DNA of 39,486 nt, from IMG/VR virus record IMGVR_UViG_3300046817_000862, positions 1 to 39,486 of that record, one strand, 5' to 3'. The position numbers and the translations under genes are program-made. This document shows positions 2,093 through 13,649 of this stretch, in pieces. The stretch is from a virus. Each line of letters begins with the position of its first letter. The stretch's first letter is position 1. The notes below the pieces were generated by a model that did not search any database, had not been told where the DNA came from, and saw only the letters and a list, made by a program, of their open reading frames with translations.

Positions 2093-3838
2093 ATGAAAAG
2101 TCTACGACGCACGGTGACGACAAGCACCGCCGCGGCCTACCAGACCAATATCGCCGCTTCCTACGAGCGGGTTAGCACAATGGCCCAGGCCGAGTTCGGC
2201 TATGGACTGAAGGTCTCGGGCCGCGACGTCGACGACATGGCACGAGAGCATGGGCTGGACTTGCCCCAGGAGTTCCGCTTCGTCGACGGCGTGGATCAGA
2301 ACGCGAGCGGTACTGATTGGACGTTGCCGGCCCTCAACGCGATGCTTGACCTCGCCAAGGCTAAGCGCTTCACGACGCTCCTGGTGCCCGCCACTGACCG
2401 CTTCACGCGCGACACGCCGAAGGGGCTGACACTCACTGCACAGTTAGCCAGCTACGGCGTGCGCGTGATCTGGGGCAACCTGCCGCAGATCGAGGATACC
2501 GACGGCCATCCGATGAAGCGCTACATCCGCAGGCGCATGGAGTCCGACGCATTCCAGCTCGCCGAGCTCGAGCGCGAGATGATCACCTTCCGCACGGCCC
2601 GTGCGCGGCACGCCAAGGCCAAGGACGGCCGCGTGGTTGGCAACGGCCCGCCGCCGTTTGGCTACGAGTACCGGCGCGCCGATGATCAGAAGCACAAGGT
2701 GAATGGTCTGGTTGAGGTGGCGCAGGAAGCGCTGATCGTCCGGCAACTCTTCGAACGAGCGCGGACAGCGTCGACGACTCGGCTACAACGATGGCTCGAC
2801 AGCCAGAACGTCCCCACCCCGCGCCAGATGCGCGGACTTCGTGGTGCTCCGTCAGGCGGCTGGAACTACGGGACCATCGCCGAGATCCTCAACAACGCGG
2901 TCTACGTCGGCTGTTATCGCTATGGCGACCAGGAGATCGCTGTGCCGCCCCTGGTCGATCGGGCGACATTCGATGCAGTCCAGAACGGACTGGCGCGCCG
3001 CTACCGTCGCCCGAGTGGCTGGTGGAAGAAGAAGCTCGAACGCGAAGACCCGTTCGTGCTCCGCGGCCTGCTTGAGTGCGGCCACTGCAGCAAACCTGGC
3101 CAGCCACAGATCCTGCACGCCCAGGAGAAGGTGGTCGCCCGGCGCCGCTACTACTGGTGCGCGAACAAGTTCGCCTCGCGCGTCAAGGACGGGCAGCAGA
3201 CCTGCCCGCTTCCAGGCATTCGCGCCGAGGTCCTCGAGGACTGGCTCTGGCACGCGGTCGTGAGCGCCATCGCCAACGTCGACGAGTTCGACGCCAGTCT
3301 TCAAGCATCCCAGGAGCGGCGCGACGCCGAGCTTCACGAACGTGCGGATCGCCTCGCGGCCATCGACCAGGAGGTCGCGCGCTACCAGCGCCGTCTGGAC
3401 CGGGCCGTTGCCAAACTGCTCGATGACGACTTCGAAGATGAGGATGAGCGTGGCTCAGTCGAACGCAACCGCGACGACAGCAAGCGACTGCTCGCACGCC
3501 TCCGCGCCGACCGCGAGCGTGAGGTCGCCGAGACGCGACCGGCCGGACTCAGCGCCGAAGACGTGGTCGCGTTCCGCCAGCTCTTGCGCCACTTGAATAC
3601 GGGTGGACTGGACAAGGCCACGCCGTCAGAGCGGCGCGAGGTCCTCGAGTTGCTCGGCATTCGCGGCGTGGTCCGCGTTGCTTCCGACGGCGCGGACGCG
3701 GTGCTCGTGCAGGAGTCACCGAAGCGCTGGGCGCGCATCGATTGGGACGGCGAGATCCGTCTGCAATCTGACCAGAGTTTCAAGAAACTTCGATTAGTTT
3801 GCAACCCTACGCCGCGCTTCGTGCTTCTGGCGGCGTAG
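2093..3838 (+). CDS. int: Large serine recombinase (phage integrase)
   Basis: This 581-residue protein catalyses site-specific integration between attP and attB through a serine-DNA intermediate. The resolvase-type catalytic domain covers residues about 20-180: the nucleophile is Ser28 in YERVS, and the conserved arginine patch reads ATDRFTRDT. The recombinase domain follows with GPPPFGYEYRR and the typical helix around AVYVG. A zinc ribbon begins near residue 326 with CGHC and continues to a second cysteine pair (YYWC and QTC). A coiled coil occupies about residues 395-480. Length and order match phage large serine integrases. The ATG at 2093 has AAGGA about 10 nt upstream. No recombination directionality factor was recognised; it may be one of the small unknown early genes. 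Confidence 0.97.
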   Translation: MKSLRRTVTTSTAAAYQTNIAASYERVSTMAQAEFGYGLKVSGRDVDDMAREHGLDLPQEFRFVDGVDQNASGTDWTLPALNAMLDLAKAKRFTTLLVPATDRFTRDTPKGLTLTAQLASYGVRVIWGNLPQIEDTDGHPMKRYIRRRMESDAFQLAELEREMITFRTARARHAKAKDGRVVGNGPPPFGYEYRRADDQKHKVNGLVEVAQEALIVRQLFERARTASTTRLQRWLDSQNVPTPRQMRGLRGAPSGGWNYGTIAEILNNAVYVGCYRYGDQEIAVPPLVDRATFDAVQNGLARRYRRPSGWWKKKLEREDPFVLRGLLECGHCSKPGQPQILHAQEKVVARRRYYWCANKFASRVKDGQQTCPLPGIRAEVLEDWLWHAVVSAIANVDEFDASLQASQERRDAELHERADRLAAIDQEVARYQRRLDRAVAKLLDDDFEDEDERGSVERNRDDSKRLLARLRADREREVAETRPAGLSAEDVVAFRQLLRHLNTGGLDKATPSERREVLELLGIRGVVRVASDGADAVLVQESPKRWARIDWDGEIRLQSDQSFKKLRLVCNPTPRFVLLAA

Positions 3839-6135: not shown

Positions 6136-6227
6136 CGCCCGTCTGGCACCCGCCCTTGGCCGTGTGGTTGGCATGCGCGCTGTCGCTGGCGTGCATGGCC
6201 ATGTTCGTGTGGGTGGTGCTGCGCTGA
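6132..6227 (+). CDS. Tiny single-span membrane protein
   Basis: This encodes 31 residues from a GTG overlapping the previous stop (GTGA), and its TGA overlaps the methyltransferase ATG (TGATG). After a short proline-containing head it is one hydrophobic helix (LAVWLACALSLACMAMFVWV) ending in a positive residue, so it is probably a one-pass inner-membrane peptide. Perfect overlap with both neighbours argues that it is a real gene. The function is unknown; superinfection exclusion or membrane perturbation are possible roles. Confidence 0.55.
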   Translation: MTPVWHPPLAVWLACALSLACMAMFVWVVLR

Positions 6228-7660
6228 TGCGGGCAGTCTCGCTATTCAGTGGCGCGGGCGGCTTCGAGGTCGGCCTCGAGCGGGCGGGCATCCAGACCGT
6301 GCTGCAAGCCGAGAACGACCCGTGGTGTCTATCCGTGCTCGAGCGGCACTGGCCGGAGGTAACCCGAGTTGACGACGTTCGCAAAGTGGACAAGGCCGCA
6401 CTCCGCGGACGACGCCGAGAATGGTTGGGAGCAGCGCCACGAGGTGCCGCCCGTCCTGGCGATCAGCCAGAACCAGCGTGGCGAAGTGGTGACGACGGAG
6501 TACGCCCACCAACTGACGAGCGGTGGTGGCAAACCGGGCGAGGGCTACTCGGCGATATTGACCTCGTCTACGGCGGATTCCCGTGCCAGGACCTCAGCGT
6601 GGCCGGAGCGCGGGCCGGTTTTCGGGGCGAACGCAGCAGTCTCTGGTTTGAGTTCCAACGGGTATTGTCCGAGCTGCGGCCACGATGGGCGCTTATTGAG
6701 AATGTTCCCGGATTGCTTAGCTCGGACGGAGGACGGGACATGGCAACCGTCCTCGGGGGGCTGGGCGACCTCGGGTACGGGTGGGCCTACCGCGTACTGG
6801 ACGCGCGCTGGTTCGGAGTCCCCCAGCGACGCCGTCGTGTCTTCATTGTCGGCTGTCTTGGAGACGCGGCCCGTGCCGCGGCGGTACTGGCTGTCTGCGA
6901 GAGCTGCGGCGGGCATCCTGCGCAGGGCCGAGAAGCGGGGGAAGACGTTGCCCCCACGCTTGATGACGGCGCTCGTCGATCTAGCGTCGAACTCCCAATG
7001 ATCGGCTTTCACTCGAAGGATTACGGCCAGGACGCAGCCTACGACATCAGCCCGACCGTGCGCGCCGCAGAGAACGAGAACGGCGGTACGCCACCAGCTA
7101 TCGTCACTGCGTTCGACTGGCAAGCGTCAGCCGGCAATGACGAGTCATGGCGCGGCAAGGGACGGCAGCACGTGGTCCGCTCGGGCGACTACGCCGGTGC
7201 GGTCAGCGCAACCCGAACGGATGCGGTCTTCGGTGACGGCGTTGCGCGCAGTCTGACTGCGCGCAACGAACGCATAGACGCCGAGACAGAGAACCTCCTG
7301 GTCGCTGGCCCGGTCCGGGCCAGCGACGGACATCATGGCCACAGCAGTCCGCGCGGCGACGGCGCCGACAACCTGATCGCCTGGGATGACCGCAACCAGG
7401 CCGCCGACACTGACGCCCATCACACGCTGCGCGGCGCGGGCCTGCAGCGCTCGGACGTGGTCAGCGGTGGCATGGGCGTGCGCCGGCTGACGCCGCTCGA
7501 GTGCGAGCGGCTCCAGGGCTGGCCTGACGAGCACACGCGCTGGATGGCTGAGGGCTTGCCCATCCCGGACAGTCACCGGTACCAGATGATCGGCAACGGT
7601 GTCGCGAGTCCGTGCGCCGAATGGATCGGACACCGCATGGTGGAGGCCAACCGGTGGTGA
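6227..7660 (+). CDS. dcm: C5 cytosine DNA methyltransferase (Dcm-like)
   Basis: This 477-residue enzyme transfers methyl from S-adenosylmethionine to C5 of cytosine in a specific DNA site. Motif I is AVSLFSGAGGFEVGLERAG (residues 3-21). Motif IV is GGFPCQDLS with nucleophile Cys120. Motif VI is ENVPG near residue 158. Motif VIII is PQRRRRVFIVG. Motifs IX-X are RRLTPLECERLQGWP and YQMIGNGVASP. The long segment between VIII and IX is the target-recognition region with phage-type repeats such as DVAPTLDDG. Two oddities: about 50 extra arginine-rich residues between motifs III and IV, and a 210-codon frame on the same strand inside the gene. No matching restriction enzyme is adjacent, so protection against host restriction is likely. 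Confidence 0.95.
   Translation: MRAVSLFSGAGGFEVGLERAGIQTVLQAENDPWCLSVLERHWPEVTRVDDVRKVDKAALRGRRREWLGAAPRGAARPGDQPEPAWRSGDDGVRPPTDERWWQTGRGLLGDIDLVYGGFPCQDLSVAGARAGFRGERSSLWFEFQRVLSELRPRWALIENVPGLLSSDGGRDMATVLGGLGDLGYGWAYRVLDARWFGVPQRRRRVFIVGCLGDAARAAAVLAVCESCGGHPAQGREAGEDVAPTLDDGARRSSVELPMIGFHSKDYGQDAAYDISPTVRAAENENGGTPPAIVTAFDWQASAGNDESWRGKGRQHVVRSGDYAGAVSATRTDAVFGDGVARSLTARNERIDAETENLLVAGPVRASDGHHGHSSPRGDGADNLIAWDDRNQAADTDAHHTLRGAGLQRSDVVSGGMGVRRLTPLECERLQGWPDEHTRWMAEGLPIPDSHRYQMIGNGVASPCAEWIGHRMVEANRW
6369..7001 (+). CDS. Nested out-of-frame gene inside dcm (conserved phage motif)
   Basis: This is a 210-residue frame, +1 relative to dcm and wholly inside it. Its middle has a zinc-knuckle-like CPSCG. 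Its end has PSDAVVSSLSAVLETRPVPRR, YWLSARAAAGILRRAEKRGK and LPPRL. The second phrase is one I recall from annotated phage proteins of unknown function, so both frames of this DNA appear to encode conserved protein. The first third (LAISQNQRGEVVTTEYAHQL, GGGKPGEGY) resembles target-recognition text of phage methyltransferases. The start is uncertain: TTG 6369 is the first possible codon and has no clear ribosome site; later GTGs exist. It may be a small nucleic-acid-binding protein. Confidence 0.5.
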   Translation: MTTFAKWTRPHSADDAENGWEQRHEVPPVLAISQNQRGEVVTTEYAHQLTSGGGKPGEGYSAILTSSTADSRARTSAWPERGPVFGANAAVSGLSSNGYCPSCGHDGRLLRMFPDCLARTEDGTWQPSSGGWATSGTGGPTAYWTRAGSESPSDAVVSSLSAVLETRPVPRRYWLSARAAAGILRRAEKRGKTLPPRLMTALVDLASNSQ

Positions 7661-8019: not shown

Positions 8020-8766
<747 letters not shown>

Positions 8767-8767
<1 letters not shown>

Positions 8768-9834
8768 TGACTGACGTGCTGGCGCTGCTCTCGCCCGCGG
8801 AGCCGGGGCAACTCACACCCACGAGTTTGCTACTGCGCGAGGGCATCGCTATCGAGGACTGGTCGCGCATCGGTGCGCAACTCGCGCGTGTTGATCGTGC
8901 GTATCGCTGGTGGGTCGGCGACTGGCTGAATTATGGCGAGCGCGAGTACGGCGAGATGTACGCCGAAGCACTCGAGCGCACTGGACTGGATTATCAGCAG
9001 TTGGCCAACTGCAAATGGGTGTCCGCGGCAGTGGGAGTTTCACACCGGTGTGAAAATCTTTCGTGGGGTCATCATTACGAAGTCGCGGCGCTGGTACCTG
9101 ACGACCAGGACTTCTGGCTCGAGCGCGCCACCGGGCAACTCTGGACCCGTCAGCAATTGCGGGCGCATATCAAAGGGCCGAAGGCCTTGCCAGAGCCAAC
9201 GGATGAGCACCCCCTCCTCCTGCTGCGGTTCTGTCAGGCGGAGCTACCGACAGCGACCATCGTCTCGCTGATTTTGCGGGTGGCATTCCCCGATGCCGAA
9301 CGCGCGCTCGATATGACGTATGGCAGTGGCGCGTTCTGGGACGGCTCTTCAGATGTTCAGGTAACGGCGCACGACGCCAATCCTGCCCGCGCGCTGGATG
9401 GAGTAGCGGACTTCACTCGGTTGGACTACCCAGACGGCAGCTTCGACGTTGCGCTGTTCGATCCGCCGCACATCGCCGATGCGGGTGCTGAGTCGATTAT
9501 GCGCGCGCGATTCGGAACTTATGGAAGCAGCGAATTGCCCGACGTCATCGTCGCTGGTACACGCGAAGCGTGGCGAGTCGCGCGGTTGGGGATCATCGTC
9601 AAGGTCACTGACCACTCGCACTCGCAGGAGTACGTGCTCGAGTCTGACTGGGTTCGCTCAGCGTTGGATGGTCGCAAGCCCTATGACGTCGTGCATCAGG
9701 TGCGCACCGGGGCACTGGTTGACCCAAAGTGGGAGGAGCAAAAGAGTGCCTACAACAACGGGTCGACCTATCTGATCTTCCGAAAAGACAGCCAGAAACA
9801 CATTCTGCGCGGACGACGGAGGGAGCAACGATGA
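8767..9834 (+). CDS. LmbU-like DNA-binding domain fused to a SAM methyltransferase
   Basis: This encodes 355 residues from an ATG overlapping the Rpf stop (TGATG). Residues about 15-140 resemble the LmbU regulator family: WWVGDWLNYGEREYGEMY, LDYQQLANCKWVSAAV, ENLSWGHHYEVAAL, and WTRQQLRAHIK. From about residue 175 a Rossmann methyltransferase follows: the SAM loop ALDMTYGSGAFW, acidic ligand VTAHDANP, and a DPPH tetrad in the place of the DPPY of N6/N4 DNA methylases. A target region follows. The final strand YLIFRKD closes the sheet. DNA amino-methylation targeted by the N-terminal domain is likely. The fusion itself and the DPPH variant are the odd points. Confidence 0.8.
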
Positions 9835-12389: not shown

Positions 12390-13649
12390 ATGCAGGTCAC
12401 GATCACACTCCAGCGTCCGCTCGAGTGGCAGCGTGACGTCATGCAAACCGGTGCCAGATTCTCAGTGCTTGCATGCGGCCGTCGCTCCGGCAAGAGCACG
12501 CTCGGTCAGCACCAGTTGATCCAGACCGCGCTAAGTGGGCGACCAGCCGGCTACTTCGCGCCGAGCTACAAGCTGCTCGGCGAGTTCTGGCGCGAGCTGC
12601 GGACCACGGTCGAGCCCATCACGCGCGGCAAGTCGGAGCAGGACCACCGACTCGAGCTCGTTACTGGCGGTGTGCTCGAGCTCTGGTCGCTCGACGATCC
12701 GAACCCGGCCCGCGGCAGAAAGTACGCTCGCGTAGTGGTCGACGAGGCGGCCATGGTGGCGAACCTGCTGGACATCTGGCAACTCGCCATCCGTCCGACG
12801 CTGGCCGACTTCGCCGGCGATGCCTGGTTCTCATCAACGCCCCGCGGTCTGAACGATTTTCACCAGTTGTACCAATTGGGCCAGGACCCGCTCGAGCAGG
12901 CCTGGCGTTCGTGGCAGATGCCGACCAGCGTCAACCCGTACATCAGCGCCGATGAGATCGAAGCCGCCCGGCACGAGCTACCCGAGCGTGCCTATGCCCA
13001 GGAGTACCTGGCCCAGTTCGTCCAACTCGAGGGTGCTGGGGTTTTCCGTGGGGTCCAGGCCGTCAGTCGCTTGAAGCCAACGCCACCCCAGCGCGGCCAC
13101 CAGTACGTGTTCGGTGTCGACTGGGCGAGGTCAGCCGATTTCACCGTGTTTTCGATCATCGACGCGACGGTGGGGGAGCAGGTGGCTCTCGACCGATTCT
13201 CGAATATCGACTTCGAGTATCAATCCGAGAGACTCCACCGTTGGGCTGAGCTATACCACCCGGTGCAGATCGTGGCCGAAGCCAACTCAATGGGCGGGCC
13301 GCTGGTCGAACGCTTGCAAACCGGCTACGCCAGGCTCGTCGGTCGAGCCCGCGCGGCCCTGCCGATCTACGCGTGGGTCGCATCAAATGCGTCGAAGGCC
13401 GCGGTCATCCAGTCGCTGGGACTGGCGATCGAGCAGGGGCAGATCACCTTGTTGGACGACCCGGTGCAGATCGGTGAGTTGACCGCGTTCGAGTCGTCGG
13501 TGACCGTCACGGGCATGACCAGGTACGCGGCGCCCGCGGGTCTTCACGACGACACGGTGATCGCGTTGGCTCTTGCGCACTTGGGTAGCGAACTCGCGGG
13601 CGCCGCATCGCCGCGCGCACACTACGGATTCGCGTCACACCGACGCTGA
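12390..13649 (+). CDS. terL: Terminase large subunit
   Basis: This 419-residue motor pumps DNA into the prohead and cuts it. Walker A is ACGRRSGKST (residues 28-37). Walker B is YARVVVDEAAM (about 112-122), and the coupling motif is FSSTPRG near residue 150. The RNase H-like nuclease has GVDWARSADFTVF near residue 240, VAEANSMGGPLV and LHDDTVIALALAH, carrying the metal-binding acidic residues. The order and length are normal for the family. It directly follows the small subunit, with the portal about 2 kb further on after two unknown genes and a non-coding block. Confidence 0.95.
   Translation: MQVTITLQRPLEWQRDVMQTGARFSVLACGRRSGKSTLGQHQLIQTALSGRPAGYFAPSYKLLGEFWRELRTTVEPITRGKSEQDHRLELVTGGVLELWSLDDPNPARGRKYARVVVDEAAMVANLLDIWQLAIRPTLADFAGDAWFSSTPRGLNDFHQLYQLGQDPLEQAWRSWQMPTSVNPYISADEIEAARHELPERAYAQEYLAQFVQLEGAGVFRGVQAVSRLKPTPPQRGHQYVFGVDWARSADFTVFSIIDATVGEQVALDRFSNIDFEYQSERLHRWAELYHPVQIVAEANSMGGPLVERLQTGYARLVGRARAALPIYAWVASNASKAAVIQSLGLAIEQGQITLLDDPVQIGELTAFESSVTVTGMTRYAAPAGLHDDTVIALALAHLGSELAGAASPRAHYGFASHRR

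Follow-up and report, generated by a model that had tools for sequence, protein, structure and literature searches.

Does a 210-codon open reading frame that lies out of frame inside a phage cytosine methyltransferase gene encode a protein of its own, or is it a by-product of the enzyme's own sequence? The question was raised by a sequence-only reading of a virus record of 39,486 bases (hereafter the window, meaning the whole stretch of DNA that was analysed), which took the frame to be true dual coding rather than a random open frame. Comparative evidence supports that claim, and we consider it very likely that the nested +1 frame of dcm is a genuine second protein-coding gene that is translated. 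Translation itself is inferred, as we have no translation data. What is shown directly is the coding constraint in the nested frame, its breadth, its occurrence within dcm for all copies examined, and its start signals.

The nested frame and its host gene

The host gene, dcm, is the first of two DNA methyltransferase genes in the window and is complete, with motifs I-X all within one frame (the ORF spans 6164-7660, with ATG 6227 as the likely start). As had been claimed, the nested ORF is in the +1 frame relative to this ORF and fully contained in it (Table 1). The quoted dcm motifs (Cys120, ENVPG, and RRRRVF) were all present, as were the phrases quoted from the nested frame (SLSAVLETRPVPRRYWLSAR, GILRRAEKRGKTLPPRL, and CPSCG). 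The GILRRAEKRGK phrase had also been described as an annotated hypothetical in other phages, and this held, the core being annotated in mycobacteriophage Thibault (hypothetical protein gp104, 81 aa) and Punavirus 813R1 (hypothetical protein). In Faecalibacterium phage FP_Toutatis, the nested frame (2042-2647) was deposited as a CDS labelled DNA-cytosine methyltransferase, and the real dcm was reduced in the annotation to its C-terminal part. A second DNA methyltransferase gene (8731-9834; phrog_954, 2.1e-15) was observed shortly 3' of dcm.

Table 1. Features of the window discussed in the text, with positions, strand, and supporting evidence
Feature	Position	Strand	Evidence or remark
Integrase	2093-3838		best match phrog_95; DNA-invertase match suggests serine type
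dcm, phage C5-cytosine methyltransferase, host gene	6227-7660	+	PF00145 4.6e-56; phrog_116 8.1e-81; invariant motif residues
GGAGG, Shine-Dalgarno-like	6355-6359	+	sequence; 9 nt before TTG 6369
Nested +1-frame ORF, hidden gene (very likely)	6369-7001	+	210 codons from TTG 6369; purifying selection in nested frame across homologues
Alternative start TTG	6558-6560	+	homologous to ATG/TTG starts of other clades; would yield 147 aa
N-terminal part of nested product	6558-6842	+	disordered (low-confidence) in model; weak constraint; includes clade-specific CPSCGH
Conserved C-terminal core of nested product, SLSAVLETRPVPRRYWLSARAAAGILRRAEKRGKTLPPRLMTALVDLASNSQ	6843-6998	+	two confident helices (predicted), basic; AF2 pLDDT ~95 over residues 110-140; conservation
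dcm segment after motif VIII (target-recognition region)	6899-7459	+	dcm model low-confidence, residues 225-411
Terminase large subunit	12390-13649

The principal rival explanation is that the frame is a by-product, kept open and apparently conserved by the amino-acid constraint on dcm together with high GC. The window alone leaves room for this reading: the nested frame runs for 212 stop-free codons, synonymous shuffles of dcm average 84 (p = 0.022), and the dcm +2 frame gave p = 0.43 in the same test. The open frame in the window sequence is thus only modestly unusual, and it is the comparative evidence that is decisive.

Conservation and selection across relatives

Searches with tblastn matched the nested C-terminus to phage records; every frame-checked hit, phage P1 dmt among them, was +1 to a dcm sequence. 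A 48-residue core consensus query matched 139 phage records, and the window product matched 517 plasmids, mostly from Escherichia. P1-like dmt with the nested interval was present in 488 of 5,426 complete E. coli genomes. Loci fetched with a nested query are pre-selected, and this bias was removed by fetching relatives again with dcm sequence that lies wholly or almost wholly outside the overlap. In the set fetched by the dcm C-terminus, the nested frame was present in 72/80 loci; the remaining 8 are contigs truncated 5' of the region, leaving 72/72 adequate loci. The set fetched by the dcm N-terminus had it in 18/19. The exception, L187, is the most distant relative, and one of the 18, L185, retains only a partial nested frame, its core having been removed by a deletion. 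Among loci from bacterial genomes (prophages) fetched by the core, 80/80 had dcm in the -1 frame relative to the nested frame, and these include Pseudomonadota, Bacillota, Acidobacteriota, Verrucomicrobiota, Phycisphaerae, Gemmatimonadaceae, and Desulfovibrio. No stand-alone copy of the core was found in these 80 loci or in the viral loci examined, each core being +1 to dcm sequence. The nested gene family is common to dcm relatives in the phages of many bacterial phyla, P1 included, and near-universal in its dcm clade.

The sequence-only reading had named two observations that would refute dual coding, namely many stop codons in the +1 frame of homologous dcm genes and dcm synonymous sites that evolve freely in this interval. 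Neither was seen. The +1 frame was open across 92 codons around the core in 192 of 193 non-redundant loci (chosen by nested-HMM hit), vs 1/193 for the third frame, and it was open at 40-50% GC too; both observations speak against the by-product explanation. The second point is answered by the substitution rates below.

Outside the overlap, pairwise identity at dcm fourfold sites was ~0.33; over the C-terminal core of the nested frame, it was 0.88-0.90. The unbiased C-terminal set gave 0.32-0.37 before the nested gene, 0.55-0.69 through the middle, 0.88-0.89 over the core, and 0.32-0.40 after the nested gene, so that dcm-synonymous sites are frozen in the overlap only. Over the core in the same set, identity was 0.55 and 0.45 at dcm codon position 1 vs 0.81 and 0.73 at position 3. 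A position 1 more variable than position 3 is the signature of a dominant +1 frame. A further analysis of this kind reproduced the pattern. Entropy over the core was likewise 1.16 bits in the nested frame vs 2.19 bits in the dcm frame.

To separate the two frames, substitutions were counted by their effect in both, using 75 disjoint (independent) pairs. The overlap gave dNN 0.055, dNS 0.170, dSN 0.150, and dSS 1.13, while the same fictitious frame downstream gave dNN 0.234, dNS 0.260, dSN 0.985, and dSS 1.25. Sites synonymous in dcm thus do not evolve freely within the overlap (dSN 0.15 vs 0.99 downstream). The nested dN/dS (dNN/dNS) was 0.32 [0.28-0.36] in the overlap vs 0.90 [0.86-0.94] in the downstream control, which contradicts the by-product explanation. 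The control value of 0.90 indicates that the method is not exactly neutral at 1, yet the gap to 0.32 is large. By sub-region, nested dN/dS declines toward the core, for which the pooled sets gave 0.18, the unbiased set alone 0.13, and the window's clade 0.21 [0.11-0.42]. The claim that both frames are conserved held only in part: strong nested conservation is confined to about the last 50 residues, and the N-terminal half is weakly constrained. In some sets there was little nested selection in that half, with nested dN/dS ~1 upstream of -210 in the prophage set. The by-product explanation is partly true there, where dcm motifs IV-VI are strongly conserved; for the nested frame as a whole, we regard it as all but ruled out.

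A second rival holds that a DNA- or RNA-level element (a recombination site, an RNA structure, or a protein-binding site) constrains the interval, rather than a protein. In its favor, the core is located on the border of the target-recognition region, a place of recombination among P1-like cassettes. Against it, conservation is codon-periodic in the nested frame, and doubly silent sites evolve at 1.1-1.3 in the overlap and downstream alike. These sites are few (~170 in the overlap). Since they are free, the constraint acts on a protein, and a nucleotide-level element or a low mutation rate is not supported. We consider this explanation nearly excluded as well.

The P1-like E. coli plasmids offer a view of the nested frame where the dcm text changes. 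Their similarity to P1 often breaks off at base 406 of the nested ORF, which is the swap point of the target-recognition cassette (swapped-cassette loci in P1-like plasmids: L276 and L277-L281). After this breakpoint, the dcm-frame text is unrelated between types (KKKEIASAIIANGAA; GEGKETTRYTSNIAIRS; GEGKEVAGNVGNGIKS, the last in E. albertii). The nested text, in contrast, retains its homology across types (EKRRKSLPPLLQMALQSVAKA; EARGRKLPDILQTSLSDLAMIQT; EARGRKLPEMLEMALKAGAIGITL). Nested text that is kept where dcm text varies again argues against a by-product. In five P1-like E. coli copies, the N-terminal 135 codons had 3-12 differences from P1, most of which change the nested residue, so the N-terminal part is loosely constrained.

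Insertions and deletions were also observed at these loci. The dcm of mycobacteriophage Thibault has taken up an HNH gene behind motif VIII. This insertion severed the N-terminal part of the nested frame, and what survives is the core, annotated as gp104. In Vibrio phage 1.088.O, the dcm core (motifs IV-VIII) is deleted and the remnant is still open, while the nested core has decayed.

Start signals and the predicted product

A Shine-Dalgarno sequence of at least 5 bases with a nested-frame start codon, open through to the core, was found in 103 of 198 non-redundant loci, vs 6.7 expected from synonymous shuffles and 0 for the third frame. The typical signal is AAGGAG 7-8 nt before an ATG or TTG. 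One large group of loci carries the start signal AAGGAGATGnGnG-ATG, and another carries AAGGAGTGG...-TTG/ATG just upstream of dcm motif IV. Many nested ORFs have a stop just upstream of the start linked to the Shine-Dalgarno, with the nested stop ~44 nt before motif IV. We propose that the nested protein would be translated from its own start by internal initiation on the dcm mRNA, which is an inference from these signals.

A programmed +1 frameshift is the alternative route to expression. It would append the nested frame to Dcm as a C-terminal extension, and the resulting Dcm-N/nested fusion would replace a separate protein or exist alongside it. The frame relation permits this, and the core is found just past the complete catalytic half of dcm. 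However, start signals in over half of the homologues, and stops just upstream of many nested starts, fit internal initiation, and on these signals we judge a frameshift very improbable.

In the window, a separate nested gene could start at TTG 6369 or at TTG 6558; either is possible, and the exact choice is unresolved. A GGAGG or AGGAGG similar to that in the window precedes the TTG homologous to TTG 6369 in three other loci (L009, L170, and L174), while TTG 6558 has no clear Shine-Dalgarno in the window. A start only at TTG 6558 had been considered, and this view was softened given the GGAGG nine bases upstream of TTG 6369.

For the 147-aa form, confidence in the AlphaFold2 model (40 homologues) was low over residues 1-95 and high in the C-terminal domain, where helices span 114-127 and 133-144 (block means ~95). 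The 33-residue centre of the core has a mean net charge of +5.0. The nested product is thus predicted to comprise a disordered N-terminus and a basic two-helix C-terminal domain. Meanwhile, the dcm model (26 homologues) was confident to residue ~220 and from ~415 and low over 225-411 (from nucleotide 6899), and the start of this target-recognition segment underlies the nested core. It is very likely that the overlap is segregated accordingly. Over motifs IV-VIII, it is dcm that dominates, with a nested product predicted to be disordered. Beyond motif VIII, within the target-recognition segment, dominance passes to the nested frame, whose product is predicted to be folded there, and dcm is variable. 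A zinc knuckle had been suggested by the CPSCG motif. The motif is present, but CPSCGH-type residues are confined to the window's clade and fall in the low-confidence part of the model, so the idea is neither confirmed nor excluded.

No convincing match to the nested product was found in the Pfam, NCBIfam, or PADLOC profile libraries, and no Pfam or NCBIfam family covers it. A sequence search of the PDB returned no match, and Foldseek of the nested model against the PDB returned none at E <= 0.001. Against BFVD, Foldseek found only Thibault gp104 and one protein labelled cytosine-specific methyltransferase. Among PHROGs, the only match was a weak one to phrog_16143 (139 aa, labelled DNA methyltransferase), with E of 3e-11 for the nested translation of L064 and 1e-3 for that of the window, and it stops before the conserved ILRRAEKRGK core. 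This family seems to derive from nested ORFs called as genes, its function label apparently having been inherited from the host gene. Across these databases, no functional homologue of the nested product was found by sequence or fold, in keeping with the earlier view that the sequence does not show its role.

Possible roles and known systems

One possibility, held with low confidence, is that the nested product is a small DNA-binding or methyltransferase-binding partner, co-expressed with the methyltransferase and acting on it or on DNA. This is an inference. Since any overprinted gene will be linked to its host, the linkage to dcm supports a functional partnership only weakly; it does not prove one, because such a gene has no easy way out of the gene that contains it. 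The absence of stand-alone copies and the co-decay with dcm in two cases are no more than suggestive. A bolder reading, which also remains possible, is that P1 Dmt and the other phage C5 methyltransferases of this large clade each form a two-protein system. The dedicated basic partner, encoded in the same DNA by an old overprinted gene, may then bind the enzyme or its DNA, tune methylation or counter host restriction, and have been retained through swaps of the target-recognition domain.

Three known systems invite comparison. Lambda Rz1, a lysis lipoprotein, is encoded by a nested +1 gene within Rz. The window's frame resembles it in being a small +1 gene, with a start of its own, that is wholly enclosed by another phage gene; it differs in having a methyltransferase as host and a product without a match to any known family. 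In ShiLan, an out-of-frame HNH endonuclease in a phage methylase gene was missed by annotation, as published in 2025; it is a mobile insertion with an HNH domain and a disjunct distribution (PMC11855218). Both are overlooked proteins out of frame inside a phage DNA methylase, and a similar HNH arrangement lies beside the Thibault core. In contrast to ShiLan, the nested ORF has no HNH match and is no insertion; it overprints catalytic motifs IV-VIII and is present in essentially all complete relatives. M.AquI and M.EcoHK31I are C5 methyltransferases of two polypeptides, the second of which carries motif IX (or IX-X) (PMC3404938). In EcoHK31I, the genes for alpha and beta overlap, with beta read in a different frame. 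A second polypeptide would likewise accompany the enzyme here, but the dcm frame itself has motifs I-X, and the nested product has no such motifs and no PF00145 match. The core motif strings and the phrog_16143 identifier were absent from the literature searched (most subscription journals lie outside it), which also held no description of the nested family, with ShiLan as the sole near case.

Nested phage genes as such are already known; what is new is a widespread protein family without known relatives, left unannotated because its DNA is shared with a well-known enzyme. As an instance of segregated dual coding in dsDNA phages, it is both clean and wide. The dual coding constrains both the evolution and the engineering of these phages' methyltransferases, and the nested gene is directly testable in phage P1.

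Several minor observations were made on the host genes. The dmt of E. albertii plasmid p2RM9973 (L276) has an apparent intein at the motif IV catalytic cysteine (GGTPC...VHNCQAFS). In mycobacteriophages Thibault, Phoebus, and NihilNomen, the Omegavirus dcm is split, with motifs IX-X in a separate ORF, which may reflect either an M.AquI-like split enzyme or a decaying gene. As with the ShiLan element, the dcm frame remains open through the Thibault HNH insert. Finally, between motifs I and IV, the window's dcm carries an insert peculiar to its clade (positions 6413-6557). The nested-frame reading of this insert (ISQNQRGEV...QLTSGGGKPGEGYSAI) resembles a module that other phages have in the dcm frame of their target-recognition region (AENNRGEVRLQAGDGQLSGPLSAGGGKPGQGYPAI in Cronobacter phage JK004). 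Different inserts were observed at this position in other members of the clade, which suggests that modules are shuffled and are read here in a different frame.
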